The position numbers were made by a program, and so were the translations under genes. Shown piece after piece: positions 17,131 through 38,111 of a stretch of 64,000 nucleotides of DNA. The notes beneath the pieces are model-generated. The model was given only the letters and a program-made list of their open reading frames with translations. It made no database searches and was not told the DNA's origin. Source of the stretch: a virus; the IMG/VR virus record IMGVR_UViG_3300042892_005961, positions 62,001 through 126,000 of that record. One strand, written 5' to 3'. Every line of letters begins with the position of its first letter. Position 1 is the first letter of the stretch.

Positions 17131-17762
17131 TTAAAAATTTAAACGATGAATTACCAATTGTTAGAGACGCACAATATACAGTTGAGGATTTAATAAAATA
17201 TGAAAAAATGATTGCTGACCATTGGGAAGCTGGTAGAATAAAAGGACCAGTTCATCTTAGTGGTGGTAATGAATCGGAATTACTTGAAATTGGTAAAAGA
17301 ATTAAAACCACTGATTGGGTATTCTCAACATGGAGGTCACATTATCACGCATTAATCAAAGGTGTGTCTCCCGTTTGGTTAGAACAAGAGATTCTTGAAG
17401 GTCGTTCTATAACTATTGTTAGTAAAGAAGATAGATTCTATTCATCTGCAATTGTTGGTGCAATCATACCAATTGCAACAGGTGTGGCATTAGCAAATAA
17501 AAGAGACGGTAAAGATGATAAAGTTTGGTGTTTTATTGGTGACATGGCATTTGAAACTGGTGGTTTTTATGAAATGCACAAATACGCTCAACGTTATGAT
17601 TTACCAATACGTTTTGTTGTTGAGGATAATGGTGTATCAACAAACACCCCTACAGAAGAAACGTGGAACGGAATAAAAAGAGATGTCCCAAGTGATGTTA
17701 TTTGGTATGAATATAAAAAAGAGTGGCCGCACTACGGAACAGGAAAATGGGTGATTTTTTAA
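17127..17762 (+). CDS. Thiamine-diphosphate enzyme, E1-alpha/transketolase PP-type subunit
   Basis: 211 aa. The ThDP/Mg2+ site is visible as GDM (138-140) followed 26 residues later by EDNG (166-169), the GDx...N motif with Met in place of the usual Gly. TWRSHYHALIKGV (68-80) resembles the substrate-entry block of E1-alpha proteins, and the segment from ITIVSK to GVALANK the cofactor-proximal helix. It is much shorter than pyruvate dehydrogenase E1-alpha (about 320-360 aa). A matching Pyr-type subunit is encoded at 23631. A role in making a branched or chain-extended sugar is possible. Confidence 0.78.
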   Translation: MIKNLNDELPIVRDAQYTVEDLIKYEKMIADHWEAGRIKGPVHLSGGNESELLEIGKRIKTTDWVFSTWRSHYHALIKGVSPVWLEQEILEGRSITIVSKEDRFYSSAIVGAIIPIATGVALANKRDGKDDKVWCFIGDMAFETGGFYEMHKYAQRYDLPIRFVVEDNGVSTNTPTEETWNGIKRDVPSDVIWYEYKKEWPHYGTGKWVIF

Positions 17763-20171: not shown

Positions 20172-21815
20172 ATGAAAAAAGTATTAATAACGGGGTGTTC
20201 TGGTTTGGTTGGAACCTACTTAATAAAAAAATTTTTAAGGGAACGATACCATGTGATTGGTGTTGACATAAATGAACCCAACATTTCAACCAAAAGATTT
20301 TCATTTGAAAAAATGGATCTTACTAAAGAAGATAATATTAGTAATATATTAAATAAATATTCTCCTGATGTTGTTATTAATGCATTTGGAATAAAGGGTT
20401 CTCCTATTAGAGCTAAAACTAAACCTGTTGATTTCTTATACCCGTCTTTTAAAATTAATACGGAATTGATTCATCAATGTTATAAAAGAGATATATGGTT
20501 AGTTTTTATGAGTTCTGTTGGTGTGTATGCTCCCGCTGAAAAATTTGTAGAGGATGATGTATGGAAAACATTACCATCTGAACATGATTGGTTTCCATCT
20601 TGGTCTAAAAGGACTGGTGAATTGTTATTAGAAGCGTATAAAGTTCAATATGGGTATGATAAATGGTCAATTATAAGACCTGCCAATATATTTGGTGAAT
20701 ATGATGACTTTAGTGGTAATGGTACCGTAATATCAACTACAATTAAGAAAATATGGGAATCTGAAGGGACAATGGAATGTTGGGGAGATGGTAGTCCAAC
20801 TAGAGACTTTGTATTTGGTGATGACGTTGCAGATGCAATATATAAAATGTATGAAAATAAAATTAATGATATTGTAAATTTTGGTTCAGGAGAAGAAATT
20901 ACTATTAAATCGATGATTGATGATTTAGTTAAAATTAGTGGTAAAGATATTACCATCACGTGGGATTCAACTAAACCTAATGGTGATCTTAGAAGACAAA
21001 TGGATGTGACTAAACAAAAATCATATGATTTATTACCTTCTAAACCATTTGTAGATGCTCTTAAAAAAACATACTATTATTACATTTCACAATTCCCAAA
21101 TCCAAATTTAGATTTCAATGTAAGAGATTTTTTATCAAAAGGTTACTATGTTGGTAATAGTGGTAAATTATTTAAAGATGTTAATGATTTTAATCGTAAT
21201 GTTGATTTAGTAATTTCTTCATCTAATGATAAAAGTAATTATTTGTATAGATACGAATATGGTGTTGCTAGTGGTGATGATAACTATAAACGTAGTATTA
21301 CCTTAGATGAAGTTCCGGCCAGAGATGAATTTATTAAAAATAACGACGCATTTGTGATTCAAAAGTGGTGGGAAACTCATAACATATCTAAAGATATGAT
21401 GGACGCTAAAATGTATTTTAGAACCTTAATTGATTCATACATACCAAACATTTATCCTGATTTAAAAGATAATATACTACATCAAGATAATTTTACATTA
21501 TACGAGAATGGTGATTTCATTACTCCTCATCAGGATGGTTATAATGCTGCAAGATATTGTGTTGTTTTAATTTACCTTTCAGATGAAAAAGACTATATTG
21601 ATGGTGGTGGTAAATTAATCATTGATGATGGTGATACTAAAGAAGAAGTATTACCGGTAAAATATAATTTTAGTATATTAGATTTTAGTGAAAACAATGT
21701 TAATCATGCGGTTGAGGTAGTTAAAAATAATTTTAGAAGATTCACTTACATTGATTTTATTTATAATGAAAGTGAATTTAAAACATGGCAAAAAAAAGAA
21801 CAAAATAAAATATGA
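20172..21815 (+). CDS. Fusion: sugar epimerase (SDR) plus 2OG-Fe(II) oxygenase
   Basis: 547 aa. Residues 1 to about 305 form an extended SDR: TGCSGLVG (7-14), MSSVGVY (113-119), Lys146 in SWSKRTGE, IIRPANIFG. The Tyr of YxxxK is replaced; residue 142 is Pro. Residues about 310-535 form a P4Hc-type oxygenase: His453 and Asp455 in PHQDG, GGGKLIIDDGD, distal His512 in NHAVEVV and Arg523. The two halves are joined in one uninterrupted frame. A single enzyme that both epimerises and hydroxylates a sugar, or channels between steps, is plausible. Confidence 0.75.
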   Translation: MKKVLITGCSGLVGTYLIKKFLRERYHVIGVDINEPNISTKRFSFEKMDLTKEDNISNILNKYSPDVVINAFGIKGSPIRAKTKPVDFLYPSFKINTELIHQCYKRDIWLVFMSSVGVYAPAEKFVEDDVWKTLPSEHDWFPSWSKRTGELLLEAYKVQYGYDKWSIIRPANIFGEYDDFSGNGTVISTTIKKIWESEGTMECWGDGSPTRDFVFGDDVADAIYKMYENKINDIVNFGSGEEITIKSMIDDLVKISGKDITITWDSTKPNGDLRRQMDVTKQKSYDLLPSKPFVDALKKTYYYYISQFPNPNLDFNVRDFLSKGYYVGNSGKLFKDVNDFNRNVDLVISSSNDKSNYLYRYEYGVASGDDNYKRSITLDEVPARDEFIKNNDAFVIQKWWETHNISKDMMDAKMYFRTLIDSYIPNIYPDLKDNILHQDNFTLYENGDFITPHQDGYNAARYCVVLIYLSDEKDYIDGGGKLIIDDGDTKEEVLPVKYNFSILDFSENNVNHAVEVVKNNFRRFTYIDFIYNESEFKTWQKKEQNKI

Positions 21816-22800: not shown

Positions 22801-23634
22801 ATGAAAGGATTACTATTTGGGGGTTGTTCATTTACATGGGGTCAGGGGTTATATTTCTATTCGGATTTACCTGGTTTAGTTTACCCCCCAAATGAAACAA
22901 CATATGAAAGACATCATTTAACTGACGCACATTTAAAATTTAAAGATACAATTCGTCATCCAAGATTGATTGCAAATCATTTTAATACATTTGAAGTTGT
23001 AAAAAATCTTAATGGTGGTTCTGAAGATGAAACGTTTGATTTTTTTAACATTATTTTTGACCGTAACACAAAAGGTCGAGAACATTTATCATATGAAAAA
23101 TATTCATATGAAGATATTGATTATATTATAATTCAATTAAGTCAAGTTTCGAGAAATAAATTTTGGTTTACTTTGAATGGTAAAAGACAATTCTGTGGTG
23201 CTTGGGTAGGTGGTGATAACAAGATAAATTTTGGATACAATATTGAAAATTTATTTATATGGATGGAACAAAATAATATGTCTGTTGATGAATGGTTTGA
23301 ATTACATAAAGATTTACAAGTAAAACGTTTAAAAAAAGAATTGATATTTTATGAAGAAAAGGGAATAAAACCAATTATATTTGCTTGGACGGACGAATTA
23401 CTTAGTAGAATTAAAAAAGATGATTATCTTTATAGTAAATTTATTAACATTGAATATAATGGGGAACCGTTTGAGACAATAGAAAATTTACAGAGGAGAC
23501 ATGGTAATATGGAAATCAAAAGTGACTTTAATAACTTCACAAATACCCCTCCGATGGATCACCACCCGTCAAAAGAGTGTCATCAAATATTTGCACAAAA
23601 CATAATAAAAAGAATAGAAAAAGATTTAATATGA
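22801..23634 (+). CDS. SGNH hydrolase-like protein
   Basis: 277 aa. GGCSFTWGQG (7-16) is block I, LNGGSEDET the Gly block, and MDHHPSKECHQIFAQ near the C-terminus the block with Asp253 and His255. Central strands (YIIIQLSQVSR; PIIFAWTD) fit the fold. It starts 8 bases after the epimerase stop, and its stop overlaps the start of the E1-beta-like gene (ATGA), so it is part of the same sugar operon. Confidence 0.72.
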   Translation: MKGLLFGGCSFTWGQGLYFYSDLPGLVYPPNETTYERHHLTDAHLKFKDTIRHPRLIANHFNTFEVVKNLNGGSEDETFDFFNIIFDRNTKGREHLSYEKYSYEDIDYIIIQLSQVSRNKFWFTLNGKRQFCGAWVGGDNKINFGYNIENLFIWMEQNNMSVDEWFELHKDLQVKRLKKELIFYEEKGIKPIIFAWTDELLSRIKKDDYLYSKFINIEYNGEPFETIENLQRRHGNMEIKSDFNNFTNTPPMDHHPSKECHQIFAQNIIKRIEKDLI

Positions 23635-24179
23635 GTTCACCACAATACACCCCGTACAAGGACGCACTAACTAATTCAATGACTTACCTTGGTCAACAGG
23701 AAGATACCGTTTTTATAGGTCAACAAGTCCTTTGGCACGGTAATCCTATGAGCACCACAATAGGTGAAGTTCCTAAAGATAAACTAATTGAACTTCCCGT
23801 TATGGAAGAATCTCAAATGGGTATGTCATTAGGAATGGCAATGGCGGGTAAGTTTGTTGTTACATTCTACCCTCGTTGGGATTTTGTGATATGTGCAACA
23901 AATCAATTGGTAAATCATGTTGATAAAATTGGGTTAATGAGTCAAGGTAAATGGAAACCTAATATGATTGTTCGTTTAGGTAAAGGTTCTGATAAACCAT
24001 TAGATCCGGGTCACCAACATAGAGGTAACTATTTTGAAGAATTTAAATCTATGTGTCCTAATACTAAATTTTGGGATTTAAAGAATTATTCAGAGATTGA
24101 ATCAATTTATAAAAACGCATATACTGAAGGTGGTATTCATGTTATAGTTGAATATCCTGAGTTATATTACGAATCATAA
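23631..24179 (+). CDS. Thiamine-diphosphate enzyme, Pyr-type (E1-beta-like) subunit
   Basis: 182 aa from the ATG at 23631, which overlaps the previous stop; a longer frame to 23577 would overlap 58 bases. LPVMEESQMGMSLGMAMAGKFVV holds the conserved Glu59 that activates ThDP, followed by the helix where E1-beta proteins bind the E1-alpha partner. It lacks the C-terminal transketolase domain of full E1-beta (about 325 aa). It is separated by five genes from its probable partner at 17127. A terminator follows directly. Confidence 0.7.
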   Translation: MSSPQYTPYKDALTNSMTYLGQQEDTVFIGQQVLWHGNPMSTTIGEVPKDKLIELPVMEESQMGMSLGMAMAGKFVVTFYPRWDFVICATNQLVNHVDKIGLMSQGKWKPNMIVRLGKGSDKPLDPGHQHRGNYFEEFKSMCPNTKFWDLKNYSEIESIYKNAYTEGGIHVIVEYPELYYES

Positions 24180-24206: not shown

Positions 24207-24638
24207 TTATCCTTCCATTTCTTCATCTTTCTTTGGCCAACTAACTTCCCAATCTTTAAAATCTGCAGCAATACAATCAATTTTATAATCTTTTCTACCA
24301 CCAACAACTTCTTGTATTTTATTCTTTGCAGTATTCCTAATACCATTTAATCCGTGTGTCAATGCCAACATACTTGGTCCTTCTTTTCCACTTCTTACAT
24401 TAGATTCATTATGCCAAATGTGTAAATTCATCTGTGCACATACAATAACAGCTCTTAACATTTCACCAGTAATTACAACATCTTTTTCACTTAATATAAG
24501 TTGTATATCATGTGTAATGTCTGCAATTTCTTGAGCATACTCTTCTTTGTGTTCGGTTATAAAAACCTCTTTTAATTGTACAATTGATAATCTATCAAGT
24601 AATTCCGATAATGTCGGTAAAAATCTTCTTTGTTTCAT
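24207..24638 (-). CDS. Small helical conserved protein (possibly DUF4254-like)
   Basis: 143 aa. LPTLSELLDRLSIVQLKEVFI followed by a predicted all-helical region with DITHDIQLILSEK recalls DUF4254-type proteins, often found near glycan genes. The match is from memory of the pattern and is weak. It overlaps the following glycosyltransferase gene by one base, suggesting a linked role. Function unknown. Confidence 0.45.
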   Translation of the reverse strand: MKQRRFLPTLSELLDRLSIVQLKEVFITEHKEEYAQEIADITHDIQLILSEKDVVITGEMLRAVIVCAQMNLHIWHNESNVRSGKEGPSMLALTHGLNGIRNTAKNKIQEVVGGRKDYKIDCIAADFKDWEVSWPKKDEEMEG

Positions 24639-25936
24639 TATATTAATGATTTATATTTTAGTTTATTTGTTTCTTCATTACAATATCTTTTCATTTCTAA
24701 ATACGCATCAGGAAATCTAAATAATTTCTCAATCAATGCATTATAATTATATTCAATCGTATCTTCCATTGATTTAAACCACCCAATTTTATCTTCTATA
24801 TTAACCACCTTTCTAATTGATTCAATTAGATATTGAAGTCTCTCATGTGTTGGTAATGTGTCATATCCTTCATCTATAAAACCATCAAAAGTCTTATATC
24901 CAATTTTTCTCATCATATTAAGACTATCTTTATTACCCATTATCATATATGGGTGTCTACAAGCTAATACTTTAAATGTTTTTTCACTTAAGAACATTGT
25001 TTGATCACTATCACCACAATGTGCTTCACTAATGACCGTAACAAATGTATCCAAACAAATATCATCATTAAAACGATTAATGTAGAAACTATCATCTAAC
25101 TCATTATTAGGTTTTTCATAAACTAATAAAGGTAGTCCTTTAGTAATTTCATTCAATAATTCTTCTTCCATATGTTTCCCTTCCCATTGATACCAATGTT
25201 TTGGAAAATCATTCATACTAACTAATCCGTCTTTTAATAAACCAGAATGATAAAGATAATTGTAGAACCAAACTCTCTGTGGTCTAATTCTTTTATTTAA
25301 ACACGCAAACGATTTTAATTTTTCAGGATGTGTAAGTTTATAATTAATATGATCTTGAAATGTTGGTAACGGATGTGCTTTCTCACCTTTAGATCGACCA
25401 TAACAAGTCATACCCATATCTAATTCAAAATGTGGGTATGGTATAACCTTTAATTTTTCAATTATATTATTATCTTCACACCATTTATCATAAACCACAT
25501 CTGCAATCATATTACCTGTTACATATATGATACGTTTTGGTGATACATCCCACTCTTGACATTGTTTATGAAAATAATCCCACAGCCATGATGTTTGATA
25601 ACCTTCTAAACTTTGATCTAACATTAAGAATGCTTTTTTATCTCTTAAATCTTTTAAGTATTTTTCATTAAGATGAAAAAAGAAACTTTTGACTCTTGGG
25701 TTATAACCTGTCCAATCATCGGGACTATGATTTACCGAAACTGGTATAATATATCCGTTTTTTTCGTCACTAGCGGGATAATATTGTAATTCACTATGTT
25801 TGTCATGTGCTTGAACGTATATCTGTGTTGCAGTTAATAATGCTGAAATACCAAACCTACCAATACCAGATGGATTAATATCATTACATGATGTAAAATT
25901 TGCTAACTTTTCTGTGTCCTCAAATAAGAAATCCAT
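24638..25936 (-). CDS. Putative glycosyltransferase, SEK-motif family member
   Basis: 432 aa. It shares with the 13449 protein the blocks IYVTGNMIADVV, FACLNKRIRPQRVWF, FVTVISEAH, FLSEKTFKVLACRHPYMIMGN and YKTFDGFIDEGYD. The N-terminal half is distinct. Presumably a GT-B-like glycosyltransferase. It is followed at 3 bases by a radical SAM gene, in the same direction. Confidence 0.55.
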   Translation of the reverse strand: MDFLFEDTEKLANFTSCNDINPSGIGRFGISALLTATQIYVQAHDKHSELQYYPASDEKNGYIIPVSVNHSPDDWTGYNPRVKSFFFHLNEKYLKDLRDKKAFLMLDQSLEGYQTSWLWDYFHKQCQEWDVSPKRIIYVTGNMIADVVYDKWCEDNNIIEKLKVIPYPHFELDMGMTCYGRSKGEKAHPLPTFQDHINYKLTHPEKLKSFACLNKRIRPQRVWFYNYLYHSGLLKDGLVSMNDFPKHWYQWEGKHMEEELLNEITKGLPLLVYEKPNNELDDSFYINRFNDDICLDTFVTVISEAHCGDSDQTMFLSEKTFKVLACRHPYMIMGNKDSLNMMRKIGYKTFDGFIDEGYDTLPTHERLQYLIESIRKVVNIEDKIGWFKSMEDTIEYNYNALIEKLFRFPDAYLEMKRYCNEETNKLKYKSLI

Positions 25937-25938
25937 TA

Positions 25939-27393
25939 TTAAATTGGTTTATTATAATTTTCTTTATCTGAAACATATACACCTGGCTCAAAATGAGTTA
26001 TTCTACCATCAGTCATTGCCACATACGGAATTGTATTATCAATTACTAATGAATTGTACCAATCTTCCAATTCAGGGAACGTCTCAACAAAATTCTTATT
26101 TCTACGAATATCATATTGAACATAAAAACTTTTAAAATCATGATATTGCATTGACATATCCATTTCACTTGTATTATGACCTCTATTAACAACTTCGATA
26201 TAATCAATTAATCTTTGAATTTGTGCTCCTTCATTCATATTAATTAATGGATTCTTTTTATGTTTTCTCCACCACATTGATAACTTACCATGTAAATCAT
26301 GCTTGACGTCATCTGGTAATGTAAGTGGTGACATAAATGCTGGCCATCTTAATATGTTAAAATCTACAACTGGTTTATGTGTTCCGTATTTTTCTTTTAA
26401 TTTCAACATATCATCTAAAAATTCGGTAATGCTAAATAAACACAAACTATTAATTGTCATCATGATAACAACTTGTCTAATTTTAGCACTCTCAATTACT
26501 TTAACTAAATTACTTCTCCATAGTTCATAATTTAATCCATCTCTAATATATTCCGCTTGCTCACCATAAGCTTCACAACTTGTATACAAATCGAATTCTT
26601 TGATATCTAATTCGTGAGATATACTAATTAACCTATTCACAGTCGTTTCGTTAAGACCTAGGTTAGAATTGACTGCAAGTCGTAAATTAGGGGATGGGTA
26701 TTGTTTCATTATATCCATGAACTGCCAAAAATTACGTGACTGTGATGGTTCTCCACCAGTTATACGTATTTCCATTAATTTTTGAGACAATTCAGGCCAC
26801 CATTTTAAGAAAGCATCCACATATGGATTGTTTTCATTGTATTTACCATAAATCTCTGACCAAGAACCATCTGCGTAATATGCACCTGCACTTGTGGTTT
26901 TAAAATTTTGATATGGTCCGTTATCTCTAATATCTTTACCCCATGTTGTTGAGTATCCTGAATTACAATATGAACATGCAAAATTACATGTTCTATCAAA
27001 ACTAACCTCCATAGTTTGAGGTATAATGTCAGCATCCCAAGGTAATTCATTTAACGCCGCAATATCTTCAGGACTATATATTTGACTTTTATATACCCTA
27101 TCGGAAATATTATTTCTACCAATATCCTCAATCTTCCAACAGTAAGAACATTCCGCCGGTTTAACACCCTCTAACATCATTTTACGGATTTCCTTTTTGA
27201 AATCGGTATTATGTAATGCTGCAGGGTTGGTTTTAATTGCTTCAACATCTATTGGATGTGGTAATGGTAGGTGACATGAATTTGTAAACCCATGACCTAA
27301 ATGTAAACTTACGTTTAACCATTTAGCAGCACAAAAACTACAACTTACTTTATTTAAATGTTCATCTCTCCAATCACTTAAGTGTTCTGACAT
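25939..27393 (-). CDS. Twitch-domain radical SAM protein
   Basis: 484 aa. The radical SAM motif CxxxCxxC is at Cys136, Cys140 and Cys143 (TCNFACSYC). RITGGEPSQSRNFW supplies the GGE SAM-binding motif. Additional Cys at 18, 21, 40, 82 and 85 before the barrel probably bind an auxiliary Fe-S cluster, as in twitch radical SAM proteins. Family reactions include peptide and sugar modification; the substrate is unknown. The next protein carries a related domain. Confidence 0.82.
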   Translation of the reverse strand: MSEHLSDWRDEHLNKVSCSFCAAKWLNVSLHLGHGFTNSCHLPLPHPIDVEAIKTNPAALHNTDFKKEIRKMMLEGVKPAECSYCWKIEDIGRNNISDRVYKSQIYSPEDIAALNELPWDADIIPQTMEVSFDRTCNFACSYCNSGYSTTWGKDIRDNGPYQNFKTTSAGAYYADGSWSEIYGKYNENNPYVDAFLKWWPELSQKLMEIRITGGEPSQSRNFWQFMDIMKQYPSPNLRLAVNSNLGLNETTVNRLISISHELDIKEFDLYTSCEAYGEQAEYIRDGLNYELWRSNLVKVIESAKIRQVVIMMTINSLCLFSITEFLDDMLKLKEKYGTHKPVVDFNILRWPAFMSPLTLPDDVKHDLHGKLSMWWRKHKKNPLINMNEGAQIQRLIDYIEVVNRGHNTSEMDMSMQYHDFKSFYVQYDIRRNKNFVETFPELEDWYNSLVIDNTIPYVAMTDGRITHFEPGVYVSDKENYNKPI

Positions 27394-27439: not shown

Positions 27440-28177
27440 TTATATAATAAATTCTTTTGGTACCTTTTCTAAGAAATTACTATTTTTAGATTCATCGTAT
27501 ACTATACCTAAATTATTAACTGTTTTAAAATCATATAAACAGACGATATCATCATAAAATCTATTTTTTAAAATTACATCGGTTTCCTTTTCATATATAC
27601 TTTTAGAATCTTTAATGTTTGAAGTTTTACTTATTAATGAAAAATGATTCATTTCTATTTTAGTAAAACCTCCAAATGTGTTTGGATGTGGACTTGGACT
27701 GCAACAACCGATAAATAATCCAGGTCTTTTGTAGTCATCGACAAACTCATTGGTGAAATCAATATGATTGTCCTCAACAAAGTTTTTATAAACGGTTATT
27801 CTATTTTCATCTCTAATAATACTAACGGTCATTCCTTTTTCAATATCTTCTTTAGTTACTGATTTAAATACAACATTATTATAACAATCTTCAGATTCAG
27901 TGGTTGTCCAAAATTCAAAACATAACTCCCCTTGTGGTTTATTATAGCTTAATCCCATATTTTTACCTGATTTACCAAATATCATACGAACATCCTCACC
28001 CTCGTAGTTGTCTTCTATTTTAAAATTACATGTAATAATAAAATTTTCGTTGTAAAAAAAATCAGTTACTGATTGATTTTCAGATTTATTGAATTCGGTC
28101 ACATATTGATTTTCGTGGTGTGTAGATAAGTCCCATTGAAACTTTAACCAATACGGTTCTCTATAATTTATTGTCAT
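27440..28177 (-). CDS. Concanavalin/LamG-like lectin protein
   Basis: 245 aa. The strands FIITCNFKI, MIFGKSGKNMGLSYN, LCFEFWTT, FIGCCSPSPHPNTFGGFTKIEMNHFSLI and IVCLYDFKTV match those seen twice in the fused domain of the adjacent 940-aa protein. It predicts a LamG/concanavalin-type beta-sandwich that may bind a glycan. No enzymatic motif is visible. Its gene overlaps the 940-aa gene by 17 bases. Confidence 0.6.
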   Translation of the reverse strand: MTINYREPYWLKFQWDLSTHHENQYVTEFNKSENQSVTDFFYNENFIITCNFKIEDNYEGEDVRMIFGKSGKNMGLSYNKPQGELCFEFWTTTESEDCYNNVVFKSVTKEDIEKGMTVSIIRDENRITVYKNFVEDNHIDFTNEFVDDYKRPGLFIGCCSPSPHPNTFGGFTKIEMNHFSLISKTSNIKDSKSIYEKETDVILKNRFYDDIVCLYDFKTVNNLGIVYDESKNSNFLEKVPKEFII

Positions 28178-30983
28178 TTTCTATTTTTTTAATAAAGTTA
28201 GTTAATTCAGGATAGTACTCTTGGCAATTCATACCTCTTCTTACTTCATATTCTTTTATGAATTTCAAGAAATCTTTTTTATTATCGTCAAATAAACTCA
28301 TTTCAGTTTCATAGTCTGTCACAAATATATCTCTTAATCTTACAATCTTTTCTATTTCTTGTGTTGAGAATCCTACGTCTTCAATTGTTTGTTGTTCGTA
28401 AAAATTAAGACTCCTATATGTTGAGTTGAACTTCATGTATTTAATCCACCTATTAAAATATTCAACATCTATATAATCTTTTAATATTCTAAATGTCATA
28501 AAAGATGGGTGACGAAGATATGATGTGTCTAAAATTATTGCTGAGTTCCAATACCTCTTAGTGTTGAAATGTTTAATTTTATATTCGTGTATCTTTTTAA
28601 TTAATTTCTCATAAGAGAATATACTGAACACATTGAACGTTGACATTACAACAATTGTTACTTTATCTAGTACTGTTAATATCTTATCGATGTTTGAAAA
28701 TAATCTATCAAATTCTAATCCAAATCTTGTGTATTCGGCTTGTTTACCATAACCCTCACATGATGTGAATAATACAACTTCTTTGACTCTATCTTCTGAT
28801 ATTATTTTTTCAAGTTTCAATATTAATCTATCAATCAATTCATCGTTAACCCCCAAATTACTATTGATTGATAATTTTAATTCTTTATTGGGTGTTTCAG
28901 ATTCGATAATATAATCCAATACTTTCCATGTGTCTTTAGATAATAAAGGTTCTCCTCCTGTTATTCTAAAAGTATCTAACGTTGAGTATAATTCAGGGAA
29001 CCATTGCCAAAACGCCTCGACGTATGGATTTTCTTCTGTTTGTCTATATGGTTTAGTTCCTCTATCCTCCATTCTTTTTGTCCCATTATATTCGTGTGTC
29101 TCTAAACTATATCCGCCGTATTCATTTATTTCTTCCATCCACTTAGAAGAATATTCAGGACCACAATACGCACATTTAAAATTACACGTATTAGAAAAAC
29201 TAACTTCGGCATATTTTGGATTATAGTTATCTCTCCAATGTGAATTGGCAATCTCATCAAAATAAGGTTCAGACCACGGTTCTGATGATTTAAAAAATCT
29301 ATCAGAGAAAGAATCTGAATTATCTTCAACGTTCCAACAATATTGACATTCTGAAGGTCGTTTACCTTCTAACATTTCTTTTCTTGCTTGTTTTTTAACT
29401 ACACTATTATGTAACGATGTTGGATTTCTTTTAATCTCATCTAAACCTATCTTATGTGGTTCAGGATGGTGACAACTATGTGTCGTACCATTATGTAAGT
29501 GCATTGTTACTTGTGTCCATTTAGCTAAACAAAATCCACAACCGACTTTATTTAACTTATCTTTCATTTGATTAAAATCTACCATTTTTTTAAATGATAA
29601 AAGATCAACCATTTCAATTGAGGTTTCTTTATTTAAATTATCGAAAATTTCAAGGTCTTCAGTCCTTTTAAAATTAAAATATGTTAGTAGATTATCAGAT
29701 TTAATATTCTTCTCAAGATCTTCAATACTCATTATACCATAATAGACACTAAAATGATTTAATTCCATTTCTGTAAAACATCTATGACTTTCCAATAAAG
29801 AGCTTGGATTGTGGCAACCAAAATAAATTGGTTCTGTATTATAATCTGTCAATAAATCTTCAGTCACCTCAATTCTATCAATTAATTTGAAATTGTGATA
29901 TAATTCAAAATATGAATTTTTTTCATAGATAATTGAAATCGTTAAACCATTATGTAAATTATTTTGATTTATCTTATAATCTTTATGACAATGAAATTGG
30001 GTATCTGTTTCATTTTTTTGTGTCCAATATTCAAAAACAAATTTTTCCACTTCATAATCAAAACTAATACCAAAGTTTTTACCTGGTATACCTAAGAATC
30101 CTATTTTTTGATCTTGGGTATATTGTCTTTCAACTTTAAAAGTAATGTTAAGTGAATAACTTTTATTACTTAATACGTTTTGTAATTCTTTTGTTTTTAA
30201 GATAAAAGGTTTTTGGTGTTCTATCTTTAAACCCGGTACCCTTATTTTCTTATGTTTAATTCTGTCAGCAACACTACTATTTAAATCACTTAATGATATC
30301 TTAATAAGTTTGTCTTTTTGATTTTGAATAATGTTGTATTCCAAATCTTCTTTATGAACCAAATATTTTTCCTTAAAATCAAAATAACATGATAAATTAT
30401 CGTTTTTTATTTTACTATTGTTATAGAATTTTTCAATATCAACTATATCATTTACACCATTAAAAATACTAAAATGAAGTACATCCATTTCAGTAAAACA
30501 TCTATGTCTTTCATTGTCAGCATCGGGATTGTGGCAACCCATATATAACGGTTGGGTTAAGTAATCTTCAAATAATGGACCGTCTAATTCAATTTCAAAA
30601 AATAAATAAAAATTATGATATAACTCAAACTTTAAATTTTCTTTATCATATATCAAAGTAAATACTATACCGTTTTCAATGTCATTTCTATTAATATGAA
30701 AATCTTTGTAACAATGAAAAGTGTCCTTTCCTTTATTCCCCTTTGTCCAAAATTCAAATACAAATGTCTCGACCTCAAAATCGTAACTAATCCCAAAGTT
30801 TTTACCTGGCATTCCAAAGAATCCTATTTTTTCACTATCATCGTGAAATTTATCTACCTTAAATTCTATTGTTAACGTTGTACTTTCCGTTAATAATGGA
30901 TTTATTTTATCGCTATTAATATTTGGTAACTCTAATAACCAGGGTTTTTCGTATTCTAAAAACATTCTATTTTGTTTTAACAT
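28161..30983 (-). CDS. Fusion of two LamG-like lectin domains and a radical SAM domain
   Basis: 940 aa; an ATG at 30965 would drop six residues and give a 1-base gap to the upstream stop. Two LamG-like domains (about 15-205 and 255-445) repeat the pattern F-x-G-x-P-G-K-N-F-G-I-S and a GCHNP...HRCFTEM motif. Residues about 470-940 are a twitch-type radical SAM domain: auxiliary Cys482, 485, 504, 546 and 549, the SAM cluster Cys600, Cys604 and Cys607 (TCNFKCAYC), and RITGGEPLLSKDTW. The lectins may target the enzyme to a glycan. I know of no described protein with this layout. Confidence 0.78.
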   Translation of the reverse strand: MLKQNRMFLEYEKPWLLELPNINSDKINPLLTESTTLTIEFKVDKFHDDSEKIGFFGMPGKNFGISYDFEVETFVFEFWTKGNKGKDTFHCYKDFHINRNDIENGIVFTLIYDKENLKFELYHNFYLFFEIELDGPLFEDYLTQPLYMGCHNPDADNERHRCFTEMDVLHFSIFNGVNDIVDIEKFYNNSKIKNDNLSCYFDFKEKYLVHKEDLEYNIIQNQKDKLIKISLSDLNSSVADRIKHKKIRVPGLKIEHQKPFILKTKELQNVLSNKSYSLNITFKVERQYTQDQKIGFLGIPGKNFGISFDYEVEKFVFEYWTQKNETDTQFHCHKDYKINQNNLHNGLTISIIYEKNSYFELYHNFKLIDRIEVTEDLLTDYNTEPIYFGCHNPSSLLESHRCFTEMELNHFSVYYGIMSIEDLEKNIKSDNLLTYFNFKRTEDLEIFDNLNKETSIEMVDLLSFKKMVDFNQMKDKLNKVGCGFCLAKWTQVTMHLHNGTTHSCHHPEPHKIGLDEIKRNPTSLHNSVVKKQARKEMLEGKRPSECQYCWNVEDNSDSFSDRFFKSSEPWSEPYFDEIANSHWRDNYNPKYAEVSFSNTCNFKCAYCGPEYSSKWMEEINEYGGYSLETHEYNGTKRMEDRGTKPYRQTEENPYVEAFWQWFPELYSTLDTFRITGGEPLLSKDTWKVLDYIIESETPNKELKLSINSNLGVNDELIDRLILKLEKIISEDRVKEVVLFTSCEGYGKQAEYTRFGLEFDRLFSNIDKILTVLDKVTIVVMSTFNVFSIFSYEKLIKKIHEYKIKHFNTKRYWNSAIILDTSYLRHPSFMTFRILKDYIDVEYFNRWIKYMKFNSTYRSLNFYEQQTIEDVGFSTQEIEKIVRLRDIFVTDYETEMSLFDDNKKDFLKFIKEYEVRRGMNCQEYYPELTNFIKKIENDNKL

Positions 30984-32412
30984 TTATAAACATTGTATTT
31001 GGGTATATCGTCTCATCAACACTTATGATATCCAATACGTCTAATATTTTATTTAATCCGTCTTCTTTATAATCTATCTTTTTTTGTTGCATTTCAGTAA
31101 CAAATCTTTTCTCATTTCTTGCGGTCGTTTCTCCTTTTGCCCATTTATCAATTCCATCAACTTTAATAAATCCTTCATCCTCATGAAACATACACTTAAA
31201 GTTACCTTCTCTTCTTATTGGAATAATATTATCTACAACTTCGATATTTTCTTTAGTAATTTCAGTATTAAGATTTTCACATATTATGTTATTTACCTTA
31301 TCTAAATAACCATTCTCAAAATCCATATGTAAAACCAAACTTTTTTCTTTACTAACCGACGTTTTTATATTTTTATAACACTTGTCATATATTTTAACTT
31401 CAGCAATTTGACCTTTAAAATATGTTTTTTGGTTGCTACAAAACCCTAATATAAATGGATTGGTGTTATCGTGTTTTTTAAGGTTTTCTCCGACCATGAA
31501 TGGTTTATTCTCTTTAACATCGTTTACGTTAGTAACTAATTCATTGTTAACAAAGAAATACATTTCTTTTGTTTTATTATCAAATGAAACTGTCACCCAC
31601 GTCCATTCATTTTCAAATTTCTTAACCCAATTATTATGATAATTTTCGTTTTTATCAAAAACTGTCATGTTAACCGTCCTTGAATTATTAAAGGATAACC
31701 CCCATGTCCAAGATTCGTGTTTTCTTAATATTGGGTATTCAATAAATTTCTTTTCTTTGTCACCAACCAACCAAATAGGCACTTTCTCTTGTTGTTGTTC
31801 TGCTTTAAATAATACAGAAATAGTATGATTACCAGATAAACATTTACTTATCTTTTCGTTTGTTGGTATAACCACTAATGAATCATCTCCATTAAAATTT
31901 ACAACCGATTTTTCTTTATGTGATTTAAAAATCTTACCATCTTTATAACCCTCAAAATAACACCTCCAAAAAAGATCATCATCTTCTTGACCCCAATCCC
32001 AATATTCGTTTGAATAACCATTGGTTTGATACGCTTGTTCTTTGGTAAATAAAACAACACCTCCAAAGTATTGATCATACCCTAATGTGTAATTATACTT
32101 TGATAATTTGGTTGCAATATGAACTGGTGATTTTTCAGGATAGGAGTAATCACAAATTAAATTATCTTTATCGATTGCTAACATATCCACGTCGTGCCAA
32201 GCTACATAATCACAACCATCTTCAAAAGCATAATGTGCTGCAATGTTTTTTGTTGCCCCTCTATTAAATAATTTATCATCAACTTGATGTCCAACATAAA
32301 ATTTATGTTCTATTCCTTTTTCGTTTAAATATTTTGATAAATGTGGTATCAAATTCTCAATGTGTTCCTTTCTATTTCTGTACGGTATACAAATACCTAA
32401 TTTATGACTCAT
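30967..32412 (-). CDS. GT7-type galactosyltransferase with inserted LamG-like domain
   Basis: 481 aa. The first 170 residues match GT7 (beta-1,4-galactosyltransferase) enzymes: CIPYRNRKEH, DVD at 74-76 (metal-binding DxD), FGGVVLFTKEQAYQTNGY, and WGQEDDDLFWRC (140-151). A LamG-like domain (about 172-372) follows, with NHTISVLFKA, WTWGLSFNN and FILGFCSNQKTYFKGQIAEVKIYD. Residues about 395-481 resume GT7-like sequence (MFHEDEG...ARNEKRF). The lectin thus appears to sit within the transferase. Overlaps the 940-aa gene by 17 bases. Confidence 0.75.
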   Translation of the reverse strand: MSHKLGICIPYRNRKEHIENLIPHLSKYLNEKGIEHKFYVGHQVDDKLFNRGATKNIAAHYAFEDGCDYVAWHDVDMLAIDKDNLICDYSYPEKSPVHIATKLSKYNYTLGYDQYFGGVVLFTKEQAYQTNGYSNEYWDWGQEDDDLFWRCYFEGYKDGKIFKSHKEKSVVNFNGDDSLVVIPTNEKISKCLSGNHTISVLFKAEQQQEKVPIWLVGDKEKKFIEYPILRKHESWTWGLSFNNSRTVNMTVFDKNENYHNNWVKKFENEWTWVTVSFDNKTKEMYFFVNNELVTNVNDVKENKPFMVGENLKKHDNTNPFILGFCSNQKTYFKGQIAEVKIYDKCYKNIKTSVSKEKSLVLHMDFENGYLDKVNNIICENLNTEITKENIEVVDNIIPIRREGNFKCMFHEDEGFIKVDGIDKWAKGETTARNEKRFVTEMQQKKIDYKEDGLNKILDVLDIISVDETIYPNTMFINVKTK

Positions 32413-33824
32413 ATTCCAACTGTTACAAATGTTATGTTATTTTCGTTTGTTATTCCGTGTTCTACAAAATTTAAATCTGATAATCCATCGTTATATAATA
32501 ATTCGTGATTTGTAGATACTTCATTTATAAATCGTAGTTGATTCCATCTAGTAGATTGATCTTTCCATTTGTTATCTAAAAATCCATTTTCTTCGTGAGG
32601 TAAACTTTCAAATAGAGATTTTCTCCTATGTGGAACATATAATTCGTATATACTATCTACTATTAAGTCTGTAATTTCACAATTAATGATTTCACCATCA
32701 TTATTATTTCCTGATAAATCTTTTAATTTATAACCTTTTATTATCTTAGTGTCATAATATAATTTAAGGGAATCCGCAGATTTGTAATCACCAAAATTTT
32801 GTGTTAAACCCTTAAATTTATTTTTTGATATTTCCATTATTTCATTATCATCTAAAACGATATCATAAACGGCAAAAGCATCAAAATATCCTTTAAAATA
32901 TTTTGGTTCATATTCATTGTTAAGGTCACCTGTTCCAATATAAAAAAATGGTTGTTTTTGGTATTGATGTAGTTTTCCTGAAAATTCTACTTTACCAATA
33001 ATATCCCCGTCTTGGTATACTTTAATAATCTTATCTACGTCATTAATTGTAATGGAAATATTTGTCTTATAATTTTTCTTTATTTTAGAATTGACATAAA
33101 GTACATTATGTTTATTATCAAAAGTACAAATATTATATCTGGAAAATGAGTTGAATGATATTGAAAAATCATATCCTGGTATTGTAAATATATTAAATTG
33201 ATCCACTTCTTTTGTATGGTCACATATTATATCATCAGGATAAAAGGAAATAAATAATGTAATATCCTTATTAAAGTTAAGATTATTTATACCTTTTACG
33301 TAAGCATCTTTTCCATTAAATTTTAATACAGAACCTGATGTTCCCATATTGTCTAAATAAAGTGTATTTAAATCTAAATTATTTTTTATACATCTCAATA
33401 ATAAATCGGTGTCTTCATAACCCCACCCCCAATACTTGTTAGAATACCCGTTTATTTTTTTAAAATCTTTAACATTAAACATTGTAACTCCTCCAAAATA
33501 GGTATCGAATAATTCCCTATCTTGGTTTGAAAAATTGGTGGCTAAGTGTGTGGGTGTAATAGAATAACTATAATCTACATCAATCGGTAACATGTCTATA
33601 TCATGAAAAACAACATACTTACATTTAAGTTTCTCAGCATAAGTAAATCCTATATTTAATAACATTCCTCTATTGAATAATTTAGCATCATCTTGTTCAA
33701 CTATAATAATTTCATAAGGAATATTCTTTTCATTAAGATATTTTGTAATTCTTTCTTTAAAAATGTCAAGTTGATCGTATCTATTTCTAAATGGAACAAC
33801 CACTCCGATTTTTTTATTTCGCAT
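32409..33824 (-). CDS. GT7-type glycosyltransferase with inserted LamG-like domain
   Basis: 471 aa. VVVPFRNRYDQ, DID at 75-77, FGGVTMFNVKDFKKINGYSNKYWGWGYEDTDLLLRC cover the GT7 core (to about residue 150). A LamG-like domain follows, with FNIFTIPGYDFSISFN, FFYIGTGD and FKGYFDAFAVYDIVL, and GT7-like residues return near the C-terminus (PHEENGF, RFINEV). The layout matches the neighbouring gene, with little sequence identity in the lectin region. It overlaps that gene by 4 bases. Confidence 0.73.
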   Translation of the reverse strand: MRNKKIGVVVPFRNRYDQLDIFKERITKYLNEKNIPYEIIIVEQDDAKLFNRGMLLNIGFTYAEKLKCKYVVFHDIDMLPIDVDYSYSITPTHLATNFSNQDRELFDTYFGGVTMFNVKDFKKINGYSNKYWGWGYEDTDLLLRCIKNNLDLNTLYLDNMGTSGSVLKFNGKDAYVKGINNLNFNKDITLFISFYPDDIICDHTKEVDQFNIFTIPGYDFSISFNSFSRYNICTFDNKHNVLYVNSKIKKNYKTNISITINDVDKIIKVYQDGDIIGKVEFSGKLHQYQKQPFFYIGTGDLNNEYEPKYFKGYFDAFAVYDIVLDDNEIMEISKNKFKGLTQNFGDYKSADSLKLYYDTKIIKGYKLKDLSGNNNDGEIINCEITDLIVDSIYELYVPHRRKSLFESLPHEENGFLDNKWKDQSTRWNQLRFINEVSTNHELLYNDGLSDLNFVEHGITNENNITFVTVGI

Positions 33825-34062
33825 TTTTCTTTACTTTCTTATCGTCAGTTTTAATTTCTTCTTCTTCTTTGAATGGAATTTCTTTCACTATTTTATTATG
33901 AAATTCAGCCAAATAATATTGGACTCTATTTCCCCATTCATCTTTATCTATTTCCTCAAACCACACAGTTAATGCGTCTAATGAATTAGCGATTTTTTCT
34001 AATGCCTTGATTTTACGTGTTTCAAGTTCAAGTTCAATTTTATCTTTTTCTTCCTTTGTCAT
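33814..34062 (-). CDS. Small charged helical protein
   Basis: 82 aa. The N-terminal half (EKDKIELELETRKIKALEKIANSL) predicts a coiled coil, followed by LTVWFEEIDKDEWGNRVQYYLAEF and a Lys/Glu-rich tail. I do not recognise the family. It overlaps both neighbours (11 and 4 bases), so it is translated with glycan genes. Confidence 0.5.
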   Translation of the reverse strand: MTKEEKDKIELELETRKIKALEKIANSLDALTVWFEEIDKDEWGNRVQYYLAEFHNKIVKEIPFKEEEEIKTDDKKVKKNAK

Positions 34063-34916
34063 ATTGATATGATTTTTTTAATTAATTTATTCCAATTTTT
34101 ATAACGGTTATATTCGGGTTTATCTAATCCTAATTCAAACATAAAATCAGGATTTAATAAATCTATTTTAAAATTTGTCTTCTTTAATTCTTTATACATT
34201 TGAAAATATTCACTTGAAAATGCGTACTCTTCATTTAGGTTTGCAACATTCATTACTCTATCTATCGATGTTGAATCCCATTTAAAGTGATGAACTTGTA
34301 CCGAGTGTGTATCCACCGGTGCAATTAATGGATGACTCCATCCTTGCCATCTCCATGTTGTGTGGTCATCGATTTTAGCGTAATGTTGTCCTGCCGTCAC
34401 ATCAACATATCCTTTCATAATACAAATCTTATTTGGACACGCATTACTCATTGGATATCTAAAAAAACCAGCATTAGGAAATTGTTCCCATATAGATATG
34501 TCATTAACTAACTCACTAAACTCACCTCCACTACCTATTCTATCAATAAAACCACCTCTTACAATATCCCAATTATTTTCTTGACAATCATATATTATTT
34601 TACGTAAATCATCATTAGGATATAAATGGAATTCATCAATATCGGCAATAACATACCAATTATCTTTTTGTTTTGCTTTAGCAAAATTATAAAGTTGTGT
34701 TACTTTTTCCCAATCAAATACTCTTTCTTGAACGGTTATAACAACATTAACTTTTTCGTAGTTTTTAATTACTTGATTAATTTCTTCGGTTAAATTTGGA
34801 TATAACTCCGTTTCATAAACGGCAATCAAAATTTCATCAACATGTTTTTGATAATGTTCAATGAAATGTGGAAGTAAGTTAATTCCGTGACCTATGACTG
34901 TTAATAATTTAATCAT
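34059..34916 (-). CDS. Glycosyltransferase family 2/92-like protein
   Basis: 285 aa. The N-terminus MIKLLTVIGHGINLLPHFIEHY resembles the start of GT2-like/GT92 proteins, and WYVIADIDEFHLYP holds the DxD metal site. VHHFKWDS later in the protein fits the conserved His/Trp near the acceptor. It probably adds a sugar; the acceptor is unknown. It overlaps the methyltransferase gene by 4 bases. Confidence 0.78.
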   Translation of the reverse strand: MIKLLTVIGHGINLLPHFIEHYQKHVDEILIAVYETELYPNLTEEINQVIKNYEKVNVVITVQERVFDWEKVTQLYNFAKAKQKDNWYVIADIDEFHLYPNDDLRKIIYDCQENNWDIVRGGFIDRIGSGGEFSELVNDISIWEQFPNAGFFRYPMSNACPNKICIMKGYVDVTAGQHYAKIDDHTTWRWQGWSHPLIAPVDTHSVQVHHFKWDSTSIDRVMNVANLNEEYAFSSEYFQMYKELKKTNFKIDLLNPDFMFELGLDKPEYNRYKNWNKLIKKIISI

Positions 34917-35638
34917 TTCTTATTAATTACCGTTATACCACTTGAAGATGGTTTGTTAGGTAATATACGAAAATTATATAAATTAATCAAATTATATGAT
35001 GGGTTTTTTTCTAATTCCTTAACTAATTTTGATGGTCCATCAAATCTATGATGGTCTTTTTTTGAATCTTCAGATATTAATAGATTTTCCTCGTAATTCG
35101 GATCGGTATCGTGTATAACGATAATTCCTTTATCAGATAAAATATTTGAATATAAATCAAAATCCAATTTAACTCCCTCATAGGAATGGTCACCATCAAT
35201 AAATAAAACATCTATCTTTATATCTTGTAAAACAAAGAAATTATAATAAGCATCTTCTGATGTTGATTTAATTAATCGTGGTTGGAATTGTTTGTGATAG
35301 TATGAGTTTTCATCCTCTAAATCATTTGGACCTCCAATACCGTTACATGCGTCAACGATATATGTTACACCAATGTCTCCCCAATTAATATCAGGGTTAC
35401 CTTCAAATATTCCTTGTTTGTGTAAATCAATTCTTGCTTGTGTCATAATACGGGGTATAAACCCACCTCCCGACCCGATACAGACACAGGTTTTTGCTCT
35501 CATATGTTGTATCAGTGAATAAACAATAAGACCGTCACCCATATGTTCTGTCGTTGCACCATGTGTCCATCTATAAGGGACTGAATCACCCCCATTTGTT
35601 GTGATATTTCCTGTTATGAAATCTTGATTGGTTATCAT
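34913..35638 (-). CDS. SAM-dependent methyltransferase (class I)
   Basis: 241 aa from the ATG at 35638; the upstream in-frame TTG is less likely. CVCIGSGGGFIPRIM is the SAM-binding motif I, and VLFIDGDHSYEGVKLDFDLY and GIIVIHDTDPNYEEN match class I methyltransferases that act on small molecules or sugars. It likely O-methylates a glycan, judged from position in the run of glycan genes. Confidence 0.77.
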   Translation of the reverse strand: MITNQDFITGNITTNGGDSVPYRWTHGATTEHMGDGLIVYSLIQHMRAKTCVCIGSGGGFIPRIMTQARIDLHKQGIFEGNPDINWGDIGVTYIVDACNGIGGPNDLEDENSYYHKQFQPRLIKSTSEDAYYNFFVLQDIKIDVLFIDGDHSYEGVKLDFDLYSNILSDKGIIVIHDTDPNYEENLLISEDSKKDHHRFDGPSKLVKELEKNPSYNLINLYNFRILPNKPSSSGITVINKK

Positions 35639-35662
35639 CAAGATAATATACGAAAAATATTT

Positions 35663-36787
35663 CTATAAACCAAACCTTGATTTTTGTGCGTTGTAATTTA
35701 GTAAAACTTCGGAGTCTGATAATTGTCTATTATATATTCTTGAAAGAGACATACGTCCATTTAAGGGTTGGATAAAATTGGGATCATCATAACTTATTCC
35801 TAAATCAACAGGTTTACTGCTATTACATACATTGTTTATGTGGCTTCCATATAATAAATTAGTCCAAGACTGTGAAACGCCATTTCTATGTATTTTCATT
35901 GTTGTGTATCCCGCCGACCCTTTTGAAAAACATAAATGATACCATTGACCAGTAGTTATAATACCGGTCGAAGTCAAAGCACCTTCTAAACATTGTCCAT
36001 ACACTTGGGATGAATAATAACCACTAATTTTTCCATCACTACCAACCGATAGTGAAAATACCGGCCAATAATCATTATCGGTATTTTTTTTAATGATTGA
36101 TGGGTTTGACGATAATGAATTAAAGTACACCCACGATTCTAATGTGAATTCAGACGTTCCGTGGTCAACATCTGTGGTTCTAACATAATCATTAGTCCCA
36201 TCAAATACAATATATCCACTATTACCACTATTAAATGTTGGACCATTTGTTAACGTACCCGCATTTCCGTTATTACTTAAATCTGTCCATTTTGTAGCAA
36301 AATCATAGGATATTGTTCCAATTATATAATCACCTGTATCTGAACAATTGTCACTTGTATATCTGACAATTGTGTGTTCTGCACCACCACTATCAATTAA
36401 TATTATTCTAGATACTCTCGGGTGATGACTTACTACCGCAGAACCTTCAACATATCTCCAATATCTGCGAGCTCCTACTGAATTTAAACCGATACCTGAA
36501 CCTGTTTGGAATCCACATGATGTGTTGTTTGACATGACACCAGTGAAGGCTGTTGTCCAACTTGAGTTATCATCACTATATTGTACAGTATAATTTGAAC
36601 TTCTTAACCCACCTCCATAACTAGAATATATTTTAACACCAACAATTACCGGTGCAGTATTATATGAATTTTTATTACCAGCATCTAAATGCATTACCAA
36701 TCCATCCATTGATAATTGTTTTATTACTTCACTGGTGGGACCTATTGAAGTTTTGTATAATTTATTTCCGTTTAAATCTAATGGCAT
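35663..36787 (-). CDS. LamG adhesin with inserted discoidin (F5/8-type C)-like domain
   Basis: 374 aa. The N-terminus MPLDLNGNKLYKTS is followed by the split LamG motif GLVMHLDAGNKNSY ... KWTDLSNNGNAGTL. Between them, about residues 45-155, VKIYSSYGGGLRSSNYTVQYS, RRYWRYVEGSAVV and VSRIILID resemble a discoidin domain. The LamG continues with FTLESWVYF, GQWYHLCFSKG and MSLSRIYNRQLSDSEV to a terminal FGL. Probably an adhesin-type fibre tip; no signal peptide. Confidence 0.72.
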   Translation of the reverse strand: MPLDLNGNKLYKTSIGPTSEVIKQLSMDGLVMHLDAGNKNSYNTAPVIVGVKIYSSYGGGLRSSNYTVQYSDDNSSWTTAFTGVMSNNTSCGFQTGSGIGLNSVGARRYWRYVEGSAVVSHHPRVSRIILIDSGGAEHTIVRYTSDNCSDTGDYIIGTISYDFATKWTDLSNNGNAGTLTNGPTFNSGNSGYIVFDGTNDYVRTTDVDHGTSEFTLESWVYFNSLSSNPSIIKKNTDNDYWPVFSLSVGSDGKISGYYSSQVYGQCLEGALTSTGIITTGQWYHLCFSKGSAGYTTMKIHRNGVSQSWTNLLYGSHINNVCNSSKPVDLGISYDDPNFIQPLNGRMSLSRIYNRQLSDSEVLLNYNAQKSRFGL

Positions 36788-36789
36788 AA

Positions 36790-37374
36790 TTAAAAAATAT
36801 AAATGTCAGATACAATTGTTTTTGCTGGTCCGTTACATGCCCTTCCGTGAGTTGGTCCTGCTGAAGAAATTCCATTTCTTCTACTTAACATATAAAATGA
36901 ACGTGAAGCAGAATATGCATATCCTCCATGCATAAAATTTGTAGAATCATTATCACATGCACCTGATTTTTTAGTATATTGTGAATACTCAAAACAATTT
37001 AAAAAATCAAATATCCTATCTCCACTTGCTGAATCCCAAGTTAACATACCAGATGATGGTGAATATCCATCTGCGTTAAAGTTCCAACAACTTGCATACC
37101 CTTCACAATAATATTTACAAATTAAATAAGACCATTTATATTCTGATTTTATTTTAATTGCAAATCCACTACTATCACACCCACTATTTCCATGTTGAAA
37201 ATCTAAATAATAACCACCAGAATCAGTACCAATCGCGTTTATTGAATATGTACCACTATAATTTATGGTGTCAATCATATCGGCGGTAACTCGTCTAAAT
37301 GATTTATTCATTATCAATCCATCAGGTGATAATGCAGTAGATGATAAAGTATTTCCAGCTATATTAAATCCCAT
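36790..37374 (-). CDS. Probable fibre-tip protein
   Basis: 194 aa. The N-terminus MGFNIAGNTLSSTALSPDG matches the leading module of the neighbouring LamG genes. The rest is Gly/Ser/Tyr-rich with eight Cys and no clear family (ends VSDIYIF). It lies between two LamG-type fibre genes on the same strand. Function inferred only from context. Confidence 0.5.
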   Translation of the reverse strand: MGFNIAGNTLSSTALSPDGLIMNKSFRRVTADMIDTINYSGTYSINAIGTDSGGYYLDFQHGNSGCDSSGFAIKIKSEYKWSYLICKYYCEGYASCWNFNADGYSPSSGMLTWDSASGDRIFDFLNCFEYSQYTKKSGACDNDSTNFMHGGYAYSASRSFYMLSRRNGISSAGPTHGRACNGPAKTIVSDIYIF

Positions 37375-37385
37375 AATATTTAATT

Positions 37386-38111
37386 TTATATTCCAAATCT
37401 TCCTTTTAATGCATTAAAATTCGATAGTACTTCCGCTCCCGCTAATGCTCTATTATATATTTTAATAACGGCAATACCACCACTAAATTGTCTACCAGAA
37501 CTTTCTCTACCTATTACCCATGTTGGGTTTGATGTTGATGTTCCTGTTACACCAAATACCTTTCCATAGTTTCCATCTGTCCATTGATGTACGTTTGTGT
37601 TATCCCAAACACAACAGAAATGATGCCATCCACCTCTACTTACCGCCGAAGTGCTTTCATGATAACCTTCGGGAGCGTGTGAATACCAATAGTTGGATTG
37701 TTTCATTGTATCTTTGGTTATACTCATATATGCCGCACCACCATCTCTTGCTAAAATTATAGTTCCTCTATCACCCGATGTTATTTCACTCGCAGCAGGA
37801 TATATCCACGCTTCTAATGTTAGAGATGTTGTTGGAAATCCCGTCATACTATTTCCTTGCATATAGTGACCATCGGATGTTAAGTTGAATGCTGTTCTAC
37901 CTCCAACTGATGTCCATCCAGGTGAACCAATGATAGTTACATTATTTCCATATGTACTTAAATCGGTCCAAGTAGTTCCACTACCTGGATAGGAATTTAT
38001 ATTACCCGCATCTAAGTGACATATTAATCCAGTCTCTATTACATTTTTAGTAAAAGAACCACTACTTAATGATGTTGAACTAATAATATTACCCCCTACA
38101 TTTATCGGCAT
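37386..38111 (-). CDS. LamG-like adhesin/fibre-tip protein
   Basis: 241 aa. It opens with MPINVGGNIISSTSLSSG. LICHLDAGNINSYPGSGTTW, TDLSTYGNNVTIIG, SLTLEAWIYPAA, WHHFCCVWD, WVIGRESSGRQFSGGIAVIKIYNRALAGAEV show a full LamG domain. Shares its C-terminal FNALKGRFGI with the LamG gene at 35663. Probably binds host glycans as a fibre tip. Confidence 0.74.
   Translation of the reverse strand: MPINVGGNIISSTSLSSGSFTKNVIETGLICHLDAGNINSYPGSGTTWTDLSTYGNNVTIIGSPGWTSVGGRTAFNLTSDGHYMQGNSMTGFPTTSLTLEAWIYPAASEITSGDRGTIILARDGGAAYMSITKDTMKQSNYWYSHAPEGYHESTSAVSRGGWHHFCCVWDNTNVHQWTDGNYGKVFGVTGTSTSNPTWVIGRESSGRQFSGGIAVIKIYNRALAGAEVLSNFNALKGRFGI

Follow-up and report, generated by a model that had tools for sequence, protein, structure and literature searches.

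We analyzed a 64-kb window (the whole stretch of DNA considered here, 64,000 nucleotides of the 211,168-bp IMG/VR virus record IMGVR_UViG_3300042892_005961) that encodes, at positions 28161-30983 of its minus strand, a fusion of lectin-like and radical S-adenosylmethionine (SAM) domains. The open reading frame (ORF) of 940 amino acids (aa) starts with ATG, contains no internal stops, and encodes two lectin domains (1 and 2) followed by an N-terminal twitch and the radical SAM barrel. In the direction of transcription, the gene order is GT7b, GT7a, fusion, lec3, rSAM2 and then conserved unknown genes. An initial annotation, made without database searches, had described two LamG-like beta-sandwiches ahead of a twitch-type radical SAM domain with an intact CxxxCxxC motif and additional Cys clusters, and each of these elements was borne out by the profile, structure-prediction and alignment results below.

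The radical SAM half and its cysteines

Residues 484-930 of the fusion matched NCBIfam NF033640, 'twitch domain-containing radical SAM protein' (N_Twi_rSAM), with 307 bits (2e-91), compared to a curated cut-off of 170 bits. The match covers the model nearly end to end (positions 4-397 of 398), and Pfam Radical_SAM was matched at aa 594-720. The GGEP motif (RITGGEP, aa 673-679) was invariant or nearly so in an alignment with distant relatives. By sequence, the radical SAM part of the fusion is a member of NF033640. Inspection of the fusion protein by eye revealed no export signal, and any guiding of the enzyme would therefore take place inside the cell.

Seven cysteines were invariant across distant relatives. 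Three of these (C600, C604 and C607; 29163-29186, minus strand) form the CxxxCxxC motif of the SAM-binding [4Fe-4S] cluster. The remaining four belong to the N-terminal twitch set C485-x13-G-x4-C504 ... C546-x2-C549 (29337-29531, minus strand), the first part of which conforms to the SPASM/twitch hairpin motif CX9-15GX4C (PMC6231123). From these cysteines we expect a single SAM cluster together with an auxiliary iron-sulfur cluster that has four Cys ligands and lies before the barrel, and the presence of four invariant cysteines in the twitch motif suggests that the auxiliary cluster is fully ligated.

Predicted LamG-like fold of the fused lectins

Lectin 1 (aa 7-228; 30300-30965, minus strand) was delineated by the lectin profile, AlphaFold2 and Foldseek, and lectin 2 (aa 252-459; 29607-30230, minus strand) by the lectin profile, the alignment and a second sandwich in the full-length model. 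The two are 46% identical over the aligned domain. No Pfam model reached its cut-off on the fused lectins: lectin 1 was without any Laminin_G_3 match, and Laminin_G_3 matched just 4 of 25 lectin family members, with a best E value of 2e-4. Direct sequence searches of the PDB with the lectin or the fusion likewise returned no matches.

The AlphaFold2 model of lectin 1, built with 25 homologous domains, was a beta-sandwich (predicted local distance difference test score, pLDDT, 80.6; predicted template modeling score, pTM, 0.81). Foldseek matched this model to 223 PDB entries at E<1e-3, and among the best 50 of the 223 ConA-like/LamG jelly rolls predominated, such as pentraxins, PAPP-A LamG and the lectin-type half (Hc) of neurotoxin binding domains, matches that speak to fold class only. 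For the full-length fusion model, the top structure match was the laminin LG4-5 domain pair. The lectin profile also matched the LamG insert of the neighboring GT7 proteins, which itself exceeds the Pfam Laminin_G_3 cut-off, by both hhalign (97.8%) and hmmsearch (1e-6, with the matched protein outside the profile), while a reversed-sequence control was empty. Virion LamG domains of the same phage were not matched by the lectin profile. Taken together, the AlphaFold2 fold, the LG4-5 match and the profile match to the GT7 insert place both fused lectins, within the first 450 residues or so, in the LamG/ConA-like fold class; they may bind carbohydrate.

Recurrence, selection and origin of the fusion

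Scanning viral contigs with the fused lectins identified 26 IMG/VR contigs in which a lectin precedes the radical SAM domain, the two lying in a single ORF in 25 and being cut by the contig end in the remaining one. Two lectins were present in 8 contigs and one in 18; once near-copies among the 26 are set aside, about a dozen separate lineages remain. Because the pooled-lectin alignment lacked conserved stretches, lectin searches were based on two other alignments (A4 and A5). Pairwise ratios of nonsynonymous to synonymous substitution rates (dN/dS) ranged from 0.04 to 0.14 in the lectin part and from 0.02 to 0.065 in the enzyme part, and these low values indicate that both halves of the fusion are maintained by purifying selection. 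With clean frames across the 26 contigs and such dN/dS values in the lectin part, a frameshift or assembly artefact, or a chance joining, is ruled out. Between the two-lectin and one-lectin groups, lectin identity was about 40-46%, compared to 71-77% for the enzyme; the lectin is thus diverging faster, as expected for a recognition module.

The suggestion that the parts had been shuffled drew support from relatives in which the radical SAM gene carries no lectin. In seven of these (L167, L168, L171, L180, L181, L182 and L188), a separate lectin gene lies directly after the radical SAM gene, and in L171 (8589-12550) the gene order alternates rSAM-lectin-rSAM-lectin-rSAM. At the lectin position of L136 a gene had weak LamG support (hhalign 76%); that of L021 was unconfirmed (hhalign 3%) and was left out of the counts. 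In trees of the radical SAM part, two changes suffice to explain lectin count. When L167 and L188 were included, the single-gain branch was moderately supported (75/87), and L167 and L188 fell in a polytomy. Read from these trees, lectin count would most simply have gone from 0 to 1 to 2, with one later loss possible given the moderate branch support and the polytomy. The likely order of events is a separate gene, then fusion, then tandem duplication; the lectin tree neither supported nor rejected lectin 1 and lectin 2 as nearest kin (approximately unbiased test, p 0.15).

Among INPHARED isolate phages, neither the full protein, its radical SAM part nor GT7a found a match, and rSAM2 had only a 23% partial match, in two Vibrio phages. 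No lectin fusion was present among the matches listed for cellular genomes (28 rSAM1-related GTDB loci).

GT7 partners and genomic context

The initial annotation had missed that the two genes upstream of the fusion encode GT7 glycosyltransferases with a domain of the same kind inserted. GT7a (30967-32412, minus strand) and GT7b (32409-33824, minus strand) are both beta-4-galactosyltransferase-like, and each has its LamG insert behind the catalytic WGxEDD motif; in both, Pfam GT7N, GT7C and Laminin_G_3 exceeded their cut-offs, and the insert of GT7b was also matched by the LamG profile. Residues 3-153 of GT7a aligned with the beta-4-GalT7 structure 3lw6 (E 6e-31), and its LamG domain starts past this motif, within the catalytic domain. 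The genes overlap by 4 nucleotides (GT7b/GT7a), 17 nucleotides (GT7a/fusion) and 17 nucleotides (fusion/lec3). Searching with GT7a yielded 34 loci, all 34 of which keep the LamG insert. Wherever enough downstream sequence was available, a radical SAM gene of the N_Twi_rSAM family was present, usually adjoining the GT7 gene; at one of the 34 loci the contig ends after a separate lectin and before any radical SAM gene.

The stand-alone parts noted beside the fusion are lec3 (27440-28177, minus strand), a single-lectin gene of 245 aa that is 27% identical to lectin 1 and holds a conserved position after rSAM1, and rSAM2 (25939-27393, minus strand), an N_Twi_rSAM protein of 484 aa (NF033640, 296.6 bits) with 80-99% identity across syntenic loci. 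Downstream of rSAM2 lie two further conserved genes on the minus strand. The protein of 24638-25936, conserved in position after rSAM2 in close relatives, reached no Pfam or NCBIfam cut-off and is glycosyltransferase-like by motif only; that of 24207-24638 is a conserved 143-aa protein of unassigned function. Upstream of GT7b, also on the minus strand, are a small 82-aa ORF with homologues in many of the operons and no family (33814-34062), a probable GT2-type glycosyltransferase (34059-34916; Glyco_tranf_2_4 weak, E 0.0014, the L021 homologue being just above cut-off) and a methyltransferase (34913-35641; Methyltransf_24).

The operon lies downstream of tail-fibre genes. Of the virion-type proteins (35663-38111, minus strand; PHROG virion structural protein), those encoded at 35663-36787 and 37386-38111 carry Laminin_G_3 domains, and a collagen-like tail fibre protein is encoded further upstream (41818-45309, minus strand; PHROG tail fiber, 8.5e-43). 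Nucleotide-sugar enzymes are also encoded in the window, namely SDR epimerases, an RmlC-like protein and a NodU-like carbamoyltransferase (7263-8930, minus strand; PHROG 1601, 2.4e-118). At 20172-21815 (plus strand), a GDP-fucose-synthase-like sugar epimerase is fused to a 2-oxoglutarate-Fe(II) oxygenase domain, and separate genes for thiamine-diphosphate enzyme-like alpha (E1_dh, 17127-17762) and beta (Transket_pyr, 23577-24179) components, both on the plus strand, sit within the nucleotide-sugar gene group.

A possible role in glycan tailoring

That a sugar is the target is best supported by the LamG domain inserted in both upstream GT7 glycosyltransferases. The separate lectin genes behind several lectin-free radical SAM genes, the constant GT7 partnership and the nucleotide-sugar enzymes of the window also speak for it. 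Our best explanation, held tentatively, is that the fusion is a radical SAM enzyme of the cytoplasm, tethered by its lectins to a glycan that the GT7 pair makes and that the enzyme then tailors. The GT7 enzymes would build the glycan, and the LamG-type domains would hold the radical SAM enzyme on this substrate in the cytoplasm, where it would remove a hydrogen atom from one of the sugars. The four-Cys auxiliary cluster could then take an electron, so that a carbinol is oxidized to a ketone, as by BtrN, or an epimerization is prepared. Such an acceptor role is proposed by analogy with BtrN, an aminocyclitol dehydrogenase of butirosin biosynthesis whose auxiliary cluster is considered the electron acceptor in the oxidation of a sugar-like alcohol (PMC6231123, PMC9012708). 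The glycan might be carried by tail fibres or adhesins of the phage itself, virion glycosylation being known in phages (PMC12619734), or it might be a lipid-linked host surface glycan; given the linkage to fibre genes, the two carriers fit about equally well. The earlier picture of a radical enzyme guided to a sugar polymer was partly sustained: it is plausible, but the target may be the phage's own fibre glycan rather than a host polymer.

Several observations weigh against a lectin-tethered enzyme acting on sugar. Besides sugars, LamG domains can recognize proteins, and they often do so. The radical SAM part of the full-length AlphaFold2 model is uneven (pLDDT 30-94 by block). Its twitch Cys set precedes the barrel, unlike that of BtrN, where the twitch comes after, and SPASM/twitch domains have been described as C-terminal extensions (PMC9012708). 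A profile comparison of BtrN with the fusion gave E values of 0.6-0.7, confined to the CxxxCxxC region and not significant. Our literature search found no substrate, ligand or activity for any N_Twi_rSAM protein. Most members of the family are without a lectin, including those in phage arrays of 5-9 genes and in Bdellovibrionota, and the core reaction thus needs no lectin. Finally, the lectin-free GT7 loci L178, L183 and L185-L187 had no separate lectin gene at the thresholds used.

Comparison with known systems sets the fusion apart in distinct ways. It shares the N-terminal twitch and CxxxCxxC over nearly the full NF033640 model, but adds one or two N-terminal LamG-like domains. Its predicted cluster set, a SAM cluster plus one four-Cys auxiliary cluster, would resemble that of BtrN, but it differs from BtrN in the placement of the twitch, in the presence of lectins and in the lack of significant sequence similarity. 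Its GT7 neighbors have the catalytic core of beta-1,4-galactosyltransferases (beta-4-GalT7 and beta-4-GalT1) up to WGxEDD, but are viral and split by a LamG insert. A functional analogy, and only that, is offered by polypeptide GalNAc-transferases, in which a ricin-type lectin directs the enzyme to glycosylated substrate; their catalytic domain, lectin fold and chemistry are unrelated to those of the fusion. In pelagimyophages, radical SAM cassettes sit together with tail fibres and glycosyltransferases in a 'host recognition cluster', whose glycosyltransferases were proposed to change the host O-chain against co-infection (PMC7029224). The operon in our window similarly lies in a tail-fibre/glycosyltransferase region, whereas the lectin fusion, the GT7-LamG pair and the rSAM-lectin pairing were not seen in the passages of that account consulted (PMC7029224).

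The strongest competing explanation, although unlikely in our estimation, is that a protein, such as an adjacent tail fibre or adhesin, is the substrate of the radical SAM domain, in the manner of SPASM/twitch enzymes acting on ribosomally synthesized and post-translationally modified peptides (RiPPs), with LamG binding that protein or its glycan. Many characterized SPASM/twitch enzymes work on peptides (PMC6231123), the operon comes after collagen-like tail-fibre and LamG virion genes, and the LamG domains may themselves be protein-binding. However, in searches made without dedicated models, neither a RiPP recognition element (Pfam and NCBIfam) nor a precursor peptide was recognized, and a pure peptide role leaves the constant glycosyltransferase partners unexplained.

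We consider it still less probable that the substrate is a small molecule, a nucleotide sugar or an aminocyclitol, with LamG serving as a scaffold that joins the enzyme to the two GT7 proteins and lec3 for channeling rather than as a binder of polymer. Most operon partners do bear LamG-type domains, the substrate of BtrN is a small aminocyclitol (PMC9012708), and nucleotide-sugar genes are close by, but neither the faster divergence of the lectin nor its increase from one copy to two is readily explained by a scaffold. Near-neutral passengers, recombined as mobile LamG modules from the phage's adhesins, would fit a phage rich in LamG proteins, with the domain present in a number of unrelated proteins within a single region. 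This highly improbable account was already weakened by purifying selection on the lectin part, by the persistence of the fusion across 26 contigs and of the GT7 insert across all 34 loci, and by the failure of the lectin profile to match virion LamG domains. Least credible of all is hypermodification of phage DNA rather than of glycan or protein, since, although phage glycosyltransferases can act on DNA (PMC12619734), the operon neighbors fibre genes and the structurally characterized GT7 enzymes are beta-4-GalT-type galactosyltransferases.

If the fusion does tailor a GT7-built glycan, the idea can be extended, more doubtfully, to a general phage pathway of which the fusion would be one example: an already assembled glycan would undergo radical chemistry within the chain (oxidation, epimerization or deoxygenation), and N_Twi_rSAM arrays would act with LamG-bearing glycosyltransferases to tailor fibre or host-surface glycan. 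Such chemistry, if true, would offer a carbohydrate-editing tool and add a new layer to phage-host recognition. The superfamilies themselves are known; the novelty lies in a lectin fusion that is conserved, in GT7 partners split by LamG and in the pairing of rSAM with lectin. We found no paper describing these three in a search of mainly open-access literature, nor any lectin-guided radical enzyme of this kind in the literature searched. With two GT7 partners of known catalytic family, the lectin-fused form makes the question of substrate testable.

The wider N_Twi_rSAM family

N_Twi_rSAM proteins are numerous in aquatic phages, one locus having as many as nine in succession, and also occur in some Bdellovibrionota. 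Arrays of about 5-9 such genes lie directly after tail-fibre genes in L046, L050, L051, L053, L056, L059, L064 and L073. Some arrays are strictly consecutive, and others are interspersed with glycosyltransferase-like and SGNH-like genes. One further candidate, L010:15574-16581 as an amidinotransferase, was dropped, having no Pfam or NCBIfam support. Other N-terminal extensions, of ~135-190 aa and not lectins by sequence, were present on the N_Twi_rSAM proteins L052:7497-9413, L078:11791-13488 and L070:13019-14587.

In one Bdellovibrionota metagenome-assembled genome (G002, locus L148), ~14 genes exceeded the NF033640 cut-off, several of them clustered on contig C15 around 638-665 kb, and other Bdellovibrionota assemblies had one to several N_Twi_rSAM genes each. 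A single ORF of 834 aa in a Bdellovibrio assembly (L139:7983-10484) joins N_Twi_rSAM to another radical SAM domain.

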